Origin: SAR202 cluster bacterium
GTDB taxonomy: Bacteria; Chloroflexota; Dehalococcoidia; Lucifugimonadales; UBA2962
Direction: 5' to 3'
NCBI GenBank assembly: GCA_022447925.1
Contig: JAKUTS010000002.1
Location: forward strand, 1-64,000
Length of the DNA stretch: 64,000 bases
The notes beneath the pieces were generated by a model, which was given only the letters and a program-made list of their open reading frames with translations, did no database searches and had not been told where the DNA came from. Below are positions 6,759 to 12,196 of the stretch, piece after piece (position 1 is the stretch's first letter; each line of letters opens with the position of its first letter). A program made the translations under genes and the position numbers.

Positions 6759-6886
6759 CTCTTATCAAGAGAGGCAGAGGGAACGGCCCTTCGATGCCCA
6801 GCAACCATTCGGAATTAATAACTTCGGAACGGTGCCAAATCCGACGAACTAAACTTTTTAATTAGTGCTTGTTCGAGAGATGAGAG
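6759..6886 (+). ncRNA. SAM-I (S-box) riboswitch aptamer
   Basis: The leader has the S-box signature in order: CTTATCAAGAGAGGCAGAGG (6761-6780), GATGCCCAGCAACC, GGTGCCAAATCC, and the closing GAGAGATGAGAG. The P1 helix pairs CTCTTATC (6759-6766) with GATGAGAG (6879-6886) over eight base pairs including one G-U. S-box aptamers bind S-adenosylmethionine and switch off downstream genes when SAM is high. The downstream operon (mtnP, ahcY, metK) matches that logic. Confidence 0.95.
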
Positions 6887-6947: not shown

Positions 6948-6981
6948 GCCAAAAGTGTAGTGCTGATGATGGAGAAATGTA

Positions 6982-7407
6982 GTGACGTCTGTAAACGCAT
7001 CTACAAAATTATCGACAACGAAATTTCTATGGACAAACGATAGATTAATAGTATCTTGTATTGACCACAGTGGTTCGATGAAAACCATAGACATAAGTGA
7101 TTACTTAAAGCTAATTAAGTTGATAGACTCTGGTCTGATTTCTGGAGTTGGCAACATTCAAATTACGTGTGCTTATGCAATGGTATTAGCAGCCAAAGAA
7201 CTTGATACCTTTGACAATAAATACTATTCAAAATTATTAAAAATATCGCTCAATATTGAAACAATAAATAAAACTAACTTGTCCTCCATTGTAAAACGAA
7301 TGCTCTCTGCAGGAGATGACGCGAATGGACCTGTAAATGGAAAGAATGTAGTTGTAAAAAAAATGATTTTAGAAGCAAATCTAATAGAAAAAGAGAAGTC
7401 TGTATAA
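6982..7407 (+). CDS. MtnA N-terminal-domain-like protein (truncated methylthioribose-1-phosphate isomerase homologue)
   Basis: First gene behind the SAM riboswitch, starting at a GTG seven bases after GGAG. The 141 residues follow the N-terminal helical domain of MtnA: LWTNDRLIV (16-24), a divergent copy of the glycine-rich loop (SGLISGVGNIQ, 50-60) where MtnA has RGAPAIG, CAYAMVLAAKEL (63-74) and SIVKRMLSAGDD (102-113). The roughly 200-residue C-terminal Rossmann-like domain, which carries the catalytic Cys and Asp of the real isomerase, is absent and is not encoded in another frame: mtnP starts six bases after the stop. It should therefore not be an isomerase alone. It could be a partner or regulator of MtnP or a relic. 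Confidence 0.6.
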   Translation: MTSVNASTKLSTTKFLWTNDRLIVSCIDHSGSMKTIDISDYLKLIKLIDSGLISGVGNIQITCAYAMVLAAKELDTFDNKYYSKLLKISLNIETINKTNLSSIVKRMLSAGDDANGPVNGKNVVVKKMILEANLIEKEKSV

Positions 7408-7413
7408 GTTGAA

Positions 7414-8268
7414 ATGAAAACTATAAATTTGGCTTTCATTGGCGGCACCGGATTCTACGATATTCAAAGCTTAAAGCTGATCGATCAAGTATCTGTAGAA
7501 ACTCCGTTCGGTCCACCTAGCGGTTCAATCTCTATAGTTGAGGCAGGAGACCAAACGGTTGCGTTTCTTCCAAGACATGGAATCGGTCATAATATAAACC
7601 CTTCTAATCTTCCGGCACGTGCAAATATTTACGCATTAAAAACCCTAGGTACTGAAAGATTAGTATCCATAAATGCTGTAGGCAGTCTATCCGAAAATAT
7701 AATTCCCAAAGACGCTGTAATTCCAAATCAATTGATTGACAGAACTTATATGCGAGTAAACACATTTTTCGATAAATCTATAGTCGCTTATGTGAGCTTC
7801 GCAAAGCCTTTCTGTGATGAGCTATCTACGTCTTTGGTTGAAGCAAGTAAACTCCATATGAAGGTCCATGATGGAGGTACGATGATTGTTATAGAAGGTC
7901 CAGCCTTCTCAACATCTGCAGAATCTCGCCTTTACCAAAAGTGGGGTGGTGACATCATAGGGATGACAGTACTTCCAGAAGCCAAGTTGGCTAGAGAAGC
8001 TGAGATCTGTTATGCCTCATTGGCCCTAGTTACCGACAATGATTCTTGGGAAGAAAACGATCATGTAAGTCAAGAAAAAGTGGCAGCACACTTGGAATCA
8101 AATGTAATCAATGGCCAAGCAATTATAAAAACTTTAATTCCTAAGTTAACAACACTAAGAAATTGTGAATGCCAGAATGCATTGGCCAACACTATAATTA
8201 CTAAGACAGATTCAATCGACCCTTCAGATTACAAACGGTTGAAATCAATAATATCTAAATATGTGTGA
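7414..8268 (+). CDS. mtnP: S-methyl-5'-thioadenosine phosphorylase
   Basis: Cleaves methylthioadenosine with phosphate to adenine and methylthioribose-1-phosphate, salvaging the by-product of polyamine and other SAM-using reactions. It is a 284-residue protein of the PNP/MTAP family. Visible motifs are the phosphate-binding GGTG (10-13), RHG (54-56), EGPAFSTSAES (161-171), GMT (183-185), PEAKLAREAEICYA (188-201) and TDND (207-210), whose two Asp residues contact the adenine base in MTAP. The residue after GMT is Val, where Asn is usual. It lies six bases after the MtnA-like gene under the SAM riboswitch. Confidence 0.9.
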   Translation: MKTINLAFIGGTGFYDIQSLKLIDQVSVETPFGPPSGSISIVEAGDQTVAFLPRHGIGHNINPSNLPARANIYALKTLGTERLVSINAVGSLSENIIPKDAVIPNQLIDRTYMRVNTFFDKSIVAYVSFAKPFCDELSTSLVEASKLHMKVHDGGTMIVIEGPAFSTSAESRLYQKWGGDIIGMTVLPEAKLAREAEICYASLALVTDNDSWEENDHVSQEKVAAHLESNVINGQAIIKTLIPKLTTLRNCECQNALANTIITKTDSIDPSDYKRLKSIISKYV

Positions 8269-8299: not shown

Positions 8300-8650
8300 A
8301 TGTCAAGAATGGAACCAGGCGAGCCTTATCATAGGATAGATTTAGAAGAAGCTCTCGAAATGTATCAACAAGAAGATACAGTAGTCATAGACGTAAGGCG
8401 ACCAGACGAATACTCTGCGGGCCACGTCGCTGACGCATTATCGATTCCAGTTGATGACCTGCTTAGTAGATTTGATGAAATACCTCAGTCAAAAAAACTT
8501 CTATTTATCTGTGAGGTAGGTGTACGAAGCGGCCTTGCATGCGAAATGGCTGCTGCTATGGGATTAAGCTCAGACAACCTTTTTAATATAGAAGCAGGAA
8601 CTGGATCTTGGATAGGTGCTGGCAACCCTAGTTCAAAAGGCAACAAGTAA
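8300..8650 (+). CDS. single-domain rhodanese-like sulfurtransferase
   Basis: A 116-residue cytoplasmic rhodanese domain with VIDVRRPDEYSAGHV (29-43) and an active-site loop starting at Cys71 in FICEVGVRSG, followed by the family's final helices. The cysteine is intact, so persulfide transfer is plausible. It sits in the SAM operon between mtnP and a PfkB kinase, behind a good CAGGAG ribosome-binding site. The placement suggests sulfur handling linked to methionine or homocysteine turnover, but the acceptor is unknown. Confidence 0.87.
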   Translation: MSRMEPGEPYHRIDLEEALEMYQQEDTVVIDVRRPDEYSAGHVADALSIPVDDLLSRFDEIPQSKKLLFICEVGVRSGLACEMAAAMGLSSDNLFNIEAGTGSWIGAGNPSSKGNK

Positions 8651-8662
8651 TCCAAGGATTTT

Positions 8663-9613
8663 ATGTTAAACAAAAATAACAAGATATTAGTAGTTGGATC
8701 TGTTGCATACGATTCGGTTGAAACTCATGCTGGTAAAAGAGTAGATGCGTTGGGTGGCTCCGCCTCATATTTCGCTTTATCAGCAAGCTATTTTGCAAGG
8801 CCAACAATTGTCGCCGTTATTGGAGATGATTTCGAACAATCTCACATAGAATTAATGGAATCTAGGAATATTGATTTGTCGGGACTACAAATAGAACATG
8901 GGGATACATTCAGGTGGGCAGGCAAATATGACCCAAATAACCTGAATTACCGTGAAACTATCGATACTCAGTTAAATGTTTTTGCAGAATTTAAGCCAAT
9001 ACTTGATGAAAAGCACAAGTCTACCGACGTATTTTTTCTGGCCAATATACAGCCTGACCTACAAATGGATGTTTTAAATCAAGCCGGTGAAAAACCAAAA
9101 ATTGTCGCGATGGACTCAATGAACCTATGGATTGAAAATAATAAAGAGGATCTATTACAACTAATTCATAAAGTTGACATAGTATTCTTGGATGAAACGG
9201 AATTGAGGCAACTCACCGGTATAAAGGATCTTATTGAAGCTTCCAAGTCAATTATTGGCATGGGCCCAAGGGTTGTTATCATCAAAAAAGGTGAGCATGG
9301 CCTTTTAATGAATAGCATCGACACAGATAATTCTTTTTCTTTATTTGCTTGTCCAGCACTACCAGTCGACCCAGTAATAGATCCAACCGGTGCCGGAGAC
9401 AGCTTCGCAGGAGGATTTATGGGATACCTTACATCAGTAGGAAAAGGTATAACTGAAATATCGGTGCAAGACTTACGGAAAGCTGCAGTTTATGGAACCA
9501 TAATGGGATCATTTACGGTACAAGGGTTCAGTATCGAACAGTTGAAGCTTGTATCTATCGAACAAATTGAAAAGCGATACAATGAATTTATAAACCTAAC
9601 CACAGTATCTTAA
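8663..9613 (+). CDS. PfkB/ribokinase-family kinase, adenosine-kinase candidate by context
   Basis: A 316-residue PfkB-superfamily kinase with the N-terminal GGSASYFALSASYFA segment (31-45) and the C-terminal signature DPTGAGDSFAGGF (240-252) that holds the anion hole and catalytic Asp246. The substrate is not readable. The gene lies directly before ahcY, whose product releases adenosine, so phosphorylation of adenosine to AMP, pulling the SAH hydrolase reaction forward, is the most economical role. A sugar kinase acting on methylthioribose-derived products is the alternative. AAGGA lies upstream of the ATG. Confidence 0.82.
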   Translation: MLNKNNKILVVGSVAYDSVETHAGKRVDALGGSASYFALSASYFARPTIVAVIGDDFEQSHIELMESRNIDLSGLQIEHGDTFRWAGKYDPNNLNYRETIDTQLNVFAEFKPILDEKHKSTDVFFLANIQPDLQMDVLNQAGEKPKIVAMDSMNLWIENNKEDLLQLIHKVDIVFLDETELRQLTGIKDLIEASKSIIGMGPRVVIIKKGEHGLLMNSIDTDNSFSLFACPALPVDPVIDPTGAGDSFAGGFMGYLTSVGKGITEISVQDLRKAAVYGTIMGSFTVQGFSIEQLKLVSIEQIEKRYNEFINLTTVS

Positions 9614-9657: not shown

Positions 9658-10938
<1,281 letters not shown>

Positions 10939-10981: not shown

Positions 10982-12196
10982 ATGGCTTACAGCCTAACTA
11001 GCTCATCTAAATATCTTTTCACCTCAGAATCAGTAACAGAAGGTCATCCAGACAAACTTTGCGATCAGATCTCTGATGCAATTCTTGATGACATATTAAA
11101 ACATGATCCATCAGCAAGAGTTGCTTGTGAAACTGCAACTACTACAGGTTTGGTTTTTGTTTTCGGCGAAATCTCAACCAATCATTATGTAGACATACCT
11201 ACTATTGTGCGGCAAACCGTTGCAGATGCAGGGTATAACAACCCGGATTTTGGTTTTGACTATCGCTCATGTGGAATAAATGTATCTCTTAAAGAACAGT
11301 CAATGGATATATCCGAAGGGGTTACGGAATCACTTGAAGTCCGAGGTAAAAACAATCAAGGTCCAGATGTGGACAGCTTGGGCGCCGGTGATCAAGGAAT
11401 GATGGTGGGGTTTGCTTGTAATGAAACTCCAGAACTTATGCCCCTAGGCATTTCCCTCGCTCATAAGTTATGTAAAAAAATGTCGGATTTGAGAAATGAC
11501 GGAACACTCCCCTACTTAAGACCAGACGGGAAATCTCAAGTGACTGTGGAATACGAATACGGAGTGCCAAAACGGATTGATACCGTAATCCTGAGCACTC
11601 AACATAGTCCTGATGTCGATCAATCAACAATCGAACATGATCTCATTAAGCAAGTTGCATTAGAGATTATTCCTGACGGTCTTATAGATGATAATACAAA
11701 ATACCTCGTGAATCCTTCTGGTAGGTTTGTGATAGGAGGACCAGTTGGCGATGCAGGTCTAACCGGTCGTAAAATCCTAGTTGATACATATGGCGGACAC
11801 GCACGCCATGGAGGCGGAGCTTTCTCAGGCAAAGATCCTACGAAAGTTGATCGGTCTGCTCATTATGCAGCAAGATACGTGGCAAAAAATTTAGTGGCTG
11901 CTGGAGCTGCAGATCGCTTGGAGCTTCAAGTGTCCTATGCTATTGGTGTTGCTAAGCCTGTTTCAATTGCCATTGAGACTTTTGGAACCAATCACATTGA
12001 TGATGCAAAAATTGTTGAAGTGGTAAATAAACATTTTGACTTAAGGCCTGGCGCCATAATAGAAGATTTGAAGTTACGAAGACCAATATACAAACAGACA
12101 GCAGCATTTGGTCATTTTGGAAGGGATGATATAGATTTGCCATGGGAAGTTACAGACAAGGCAAAAATAATCAAAAAAGAGCTATTTGGTAACTAA
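10982..12196 (+). CDS. metK: S-adenosylmethionine synthetase
   Basis: Makes SAM from methionine and ATP with release of triphosphate. The 404-residue protein shows the family landmarks: [19 protein letters not shown] near the start, [12 protein letters not shown], and [20 protein letters not shown] in the third domain. It has a strong GGAGG ribosome-binding site before the ATG. As a distal gene of the S-box operon its transcription should fall when SAM accumulates, giving direct feedback. Confidence 0.96.

Follow-up and report, generated by a model that had tools for sequence, protein, structure and literature searches.

The locus lies in a window of 64,000 nucleotides, the whole stretch of DNA that was analysed, from the genome of a SAR202 cluster bacterium of the Chloroflexota. 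Here, an S-box riboswitch heads an operon whose first gene, referred to as half-MtnA, encodes the N-terminal domain of MtnA (S-methyl-5-thioribose-1-phosphate isomerase) and no more. The features are as follows:

6759..6886, + strand: SAM (S-box) riboswitch aptamer at the operon head (Rfam RF00162, 74.2 bits, E = 2.4e-17)
6971..6984, + strand: GGAG (Shine-Dalgarno-like) and GTG start of half-MtnA, read from the sequence and kept in sister genomes
6982..7407, + strand: half-MtnA, MtnA N-terminal domain only, 141 aa, GTG start, TAA stop
7405..7418, + strand: junction between the half-MtnA stop and the mtnP start, TAANTTGAAATGAA, in frame
7414..8268, + strand: mtnP, S-methyl-5'-thioadenosine phosphorylase, 284 aa (TIGR01694, 285 bits, cut-off 274.85; PF01048, E = 1.2e-37)
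8300..8650, + strand: rhodanese-like protein (PF00581, E = 2.6e-13), syntenic in relatives
8663..9613, + strand: PfkB-family kinase (PF00294, E = 6.7e-23), syntenic in relatives
9667..10938, + strand: S-adenosylhomocysteine hydrolase, SAHH (PF05221/PF00670), syntenic
10982..12196, + strand: MetK, S-adenosylmethionine synthetase (PF00438/PF02772/PF02773), syntenic

The family was sampled with five genomes of SAR202 Chloroflexota, all of one genus: the source genome and four sister genomes (the Chloroflexi/SAR202/Dehalococcoidia MAGs NAT137, OSU_TB35, UBA1152, and SAR202-II-3). The riboswitch score of 74.2 bits compares with a gathering score of 44.4, and the aptamer was found at the matching place in the four sister genomes with 71–79 bits. 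As the original prediction had it, half-MtnA possesses its own GTG start, at 6982, and its own ribosome-binding site, a GGAG at 6971–6974 that is 7 nt 5' of the start codon; in the sister genomes, GGAG is followed by GTG or TTG with the spacing unchanged. The GTG is 95 bases 3' of the aptamer. At the other end of the gene, the TAA is 6 nt 5' of the mtnP ATG at 7414, with no leftover C-domain DNA in between. The junction reads TAANTTGAAATGAA in four of the five family genomes, the fifth showing an ATGA overlap. It is a tight junction, with the two genes probably coupled in translation.

Taken singly, the half-MtnA sequence showed weak MtnA similarity against NCBIfam (PRK05720, E = 0.0011; TIGR00512, E = 0.034), its TIGR00512 score of 13.1 bits being below the 279-bit cut-off, while a Pfam search with it returned no match and phmmer against the PDB returned nothing useful. 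When aligned with its four sister sequences and compared profile to profile with full MtnA, it matched over 122 columns with 97.6% probability (E = 2.8e-12), which confirms the MtnA similarity previously proposed by eye. The AF2 model of half-MtnA (pLDDT 84.8, pTM 0.81) gave the same picture: in Foldseek, the first 26 matches all belonged to the MtnA/R15P-isomerase/eIF2B superfamily, some of them homologues named eIF2B, and the best was B. subtilis MtnA (2yvk, TMq 0.73), this test of the fold being only partly independent, as the AF2 alignment of 14 rows included MtnA N-domains. Together with a reading frame that ends at the domain linker, these matches bear out the description of half-MtnA as an MtnA N-domain-only protein. 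We are highly confident that it is the N-domain of MtnA, truncated in situ and devoid of MtnA catalysis.

The half-MtnA ORF (133–145 aa) was found in all five family genomes, conserved beside MtnP, and always in the order SAM riboswitch, half-MtnA, mtnP, rhodanese, PfkB kinase, SAHH, and metK. Relatives of the same order that belong to other families have a full-length mtnA (~340–380 aa) directly 5' of mtnP, at the matching operon position and often preceded by the same riboswitch class (RF00162 just 5' of mtnA in seven order relatives). Full-length MtnA was detected in 8/8 order relatives tested with TIGR00512. In genome G005, the operon is also flanked by ligase, aminotransferase, and protease genes, as in the half-MtnA family. 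Because full-length mtnA occupies exactly that operon position in the order relatives, half-MtnA is almost certainly the family's own mtnA, whose C-domain DNA was deleted in place at the domain boundary before the five species diverged. The halves are monophyletic (support 100/100), and the five family members count as one evolutionary event. A recent frameshift or an assembly error was also considered and rejected, given the nearly equal length in five independent genomes and the lack of residual C-domain DNA.

Across the order, an MtnA N-domain was detected in 140 of the 250 genomes, and frames shorter than 150 aa occurred only in the five family members; a wider set of 400 genomes from across the phylum gave no other frame shorter than 200 aa among the matches listed. 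The short frames of G133 (176 aa), G570 (215 aa), and G457 (243 aa) were rejected as N-domain-only proteins, since C-domain coding DNA follows them and they represent frame breaks or contig ends. Three more frames, in G053, G123, and G184, measure 232–267 aa and lie near contig ends. A literature search found nothing on an MtnA N-domain-only protein. The arrangement of an MtnA domain alone with MtnP, which had been put forward as new, has no second case among the matches listed for these 250 order and 400 phylum genomes, and half-MtnA, as far as the searches reach, adds a new architecture to those of the MtnA family.

The dN/dS of half-MtnA was 0.18–0.39 in all ten species pairs, and that of the neighbouring genes ~0.03–0.13 (computed from dN and dS values). 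Its pN/pS was 0.34–0.54, and in each of the ten pairs none of 1000 codon bootstraps had pN ≥ pS. The half-MtnA protein is therefore under selection, less strict than that acting on its neighbours, and 39 of its 141 residues are invariant over the five species despite high synonymous divergence. A selected role at the protein level is thus likely. A different reading is that the frame serves mainly to channel ribosomes to mtnP from the riboswitch leader, the protein mattering little beyond harmless folding. Since the stop and start codons form a tight and conserved junction, in frame and 6 nt apart in the source genome, translational coupling has to be taken seriously as a rival explanation, or else as an extra reason for keeping the ORF. 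No strong Shine-Dalgarno sequence was seen directly 5' of mtnP, and the protein evolves fast. However, a frame kept for its ribosomes would need neither the helix core nor the invariant AGDxAxGP stretch, and the pN/pS values and invariant residues likewise argue against it, so that as a full explanation we regard it as rather unlikely.

The original prediction also offered a pathway relic held in place by the operon, and allowed for the case of a frameshifted copy among relatives with a full-length gene. Relatives do have full-length mtnA at this place, but the frame is intact in all five halves and purifying selection was found in every species pair. The relaxed constraint (dN/dS ~0.2–0.4 vs. 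~0.03–0.13 in the neighbours) and the disappearance of the active-site loops are what a truncated mtnA slowly decaying without function in an essential operon would show. Against this, length and frame are nearly constant, with no stop, in five species at a synonymous divergence of ~0.6 or more, and a neutral 400-bp frame in AT-rich genomes of 1.4–1.9 Mb should be gone by now; we consider a functionless relic improbable.

Half-MtnA ends at the linker helix (EAxxIxxE) that in relatives leads into the C-domain. It lacks both catalytic residues, C156 (Cys) and D236 (Asp), which do not vary among nine relatives with full MtnA. A search of the source genome for the MtnA C-domain (PF01008 and TIGR00512) found none, and the five family genomes (77–90% completeness) gave no match to either model. 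The catalytic parts, already noted as missing from the frame, are thus missing elsewhere in the genome as well. Because the catalytic residues are missing, isomerase activity of half-MtnA is very unlikely, judging from the sequence.

The losses extend into the domain that remains. As a reference set, we took the 25 columns invariant across nine full-length MtnA N-domains. Kept in all five halves are A57, A59, A63, A64, L79, I86, R102, E123, and A124, which form the helix core, and also D18; lost in all five are ten of the 25 columns, L22, P23, R47, A49, P50, G53, A89, R90, P91, and A99, which sit mostly in substrate-cleft loops. The presumed phosphate-binding arginines of the RGAP and RPT motifs (R47 and R90) are replaced by S/P and N/D in each of the five halves. 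By phmmer match coordinates, and assuming no intervening gap, R47/R90 map to Arg22/Arg65 of the P. horikoshii R15P isomerase, and in that enzyme Arg22 and Arg65 bind the 1-phosphate (PMC5789824). By this comparison of columns, the scaffold is retained and the substrate cleft gone. Binding of methylthioribose-1-phosphate, suggested in the original prediction, is unlikely because the presumed phosphate arginines and the loops are lost in 5/5 halves. The related idea of a sensor, in which half-MtnA would still bind methylthioribose-1-phosphate or a related sugar phosphate alongside its producer, agrees with its position next to mtnP and with the part that superfamily N-domains contribute to the sugar-phosphate site (PMC5789824), but besides the two arginines A49, P50, G53, and P91 are lost and the rest of the site belongs to the missing domain, which makes a sensor very improbable. 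A split enzyme, with the C-terminal domain encoded elsewhere and the halves assembling into an active isomerase, would be expected to break at the domain boundary as this gene does, but is nearly refuted by the five genomes without a PF01008 or TIGR00512 match and by the loss of the active-site arginines.

Half-MtnA is now probably a small structural or regulatory protein. The account we favour, of a truncated mtnA repurposed as a non-enzymatic protein and perhaps a partner of MtnP, is plausible and, as a whole, tentative. The ancestral operon had the arrangement usual for the order (riboswitch-mtnA-mtnP-rhodanese-PfkB-SAHH-metK), and deletion of the DNA encoding the C-terminal catalytic domain left the N-terminal helical domain, which ends at the domain linker. 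The remnant then shed its substrate-binding loops, but its hydrophobic core of helices persisted and it has been preserved as a protein since. Made together with MtnP under the control of the SAM riboswitch, this small non-enzymatic protein would most plausibly bind MtnP or another operon enzyme, stabilising or tuning it; that the partner is MtnP in particular is possible, and we propose it with some reserve. MTA would still be cleaved to adenine, and methylthioribose-1-phosphate would no longer be isomerised by MtnA. A bolder version, which we think doubtful, is that loss of the catalytic domain turned MtnA into a dedicated regulatory subunit of MtnP, the preceding enzyme of the pathway, as a bacterial counterpart to the non-catalytic eIF2B regulatory subunits, which belong to the same superfamily, MTA salvage then ending at methylthioribose-1-phosphate.

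Some features of MtnP bear on a partnership. While 18 of the 20 MtnA-less genomes of the order are also without MtnP, the half-MtnA family keeps it, these counts being phylogenetically non-independent and several of the genomes incomplete. The family MtnP also departs at 16 of the 129 columns that are otherwise nearly invariant in order relatives, for example at positions 57, 60, 122, 175, 209, and 260, which in relatives are R, R, G, R, Y, and A. Such departures possibly reflect a different substrate or altered subunit contacts alongside the loss of MtnA catalysis. The retention of MtnP and its 16 altered columns fit a changed MtnP working with half-MtnA, without proving it. Prediction of half-MtnA and MtnP as one fused chain gave a pLDDT of 63 and a pTM of 0.48, and was poor in the MtnP part. 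Genome G014, of another family, has the whole operon with an intact mtnP and neither mtnA nor a remnant in front (L053:6059-6970), so the domain is not a general requirement of MtnP. In G014, too, MTA salvage seems to end at MTR-1-P. A further point against a partnership is that half-MtnA evolves at two to three times the rate of MtnP.

Among known systems, the closest is MtnA itself (TIGR00512; PDB 2yvk/2yrf and 1t9k), with which half-MtnA shares a homologous N-domain with its conserved helix core and the operon position before mtnP and behind an S-box riboswitch. It differs in lacking the C-terminal Rossmann-like catalytic domain, the catalytic Cys and Asp, and the presumed phosphate arginines and loops. 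The helical N-domain fold is also common to R15P isomerase and the eIF2B alpha/beta/delta regulatory subunits (PF01008 superfamily), and in eIF2B the non-catalytic homologues act via protein contacts, their N-domains binding eIF2alpha (PMC5789824); R15P isomerase and the eIF2B subunits retain the C-terminal domain, however, whereas half-MtnA is the N-domain alone. Another unusual MtnA domain architecture is the Tetrahymena fusion MtnAK (PMC6302742), but there an active enzyme gained a domain and here the catalytic domain was lost.

Half-MtnA is a clear example of enzyme reduction, in which a domain without catalysis stays under selection in the ancestral position within its operon, here in ocean bacteria that have not been cultivated. 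The passage from catalyst to non-enzymatic protein thereby becomes testable in the MtnA/eIF2B superfamily. It also illustrates a hazard of name transfer, as a protein like half-MtnA could be annotated as MtnA. We predict that recycling of MTA via the usual isomerase is impossible in these SAR202 bacteria, and that they may release methylthioribose-1-phosphate or handle it otherwise.

All five family genomes encode a class II aldolase of the fuculose-/ribulose-1-phosphate type (in the source genome at C12:91418-91954, outside the window), which could belong to a DHAP shunt whose isomerase has been lost. The same aldolase is found in all tested genomes, whether MtnA is present or not, and is therefore uninformative on the DHAP shunt. 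In genome G002 (L018), there is an N run within mtnP, and the QOR gene, which lies beside the operon in other genomes, is missing; at L018:8476-9052, a second partial rhodanese copy (residues 75–114) directly follows the first.
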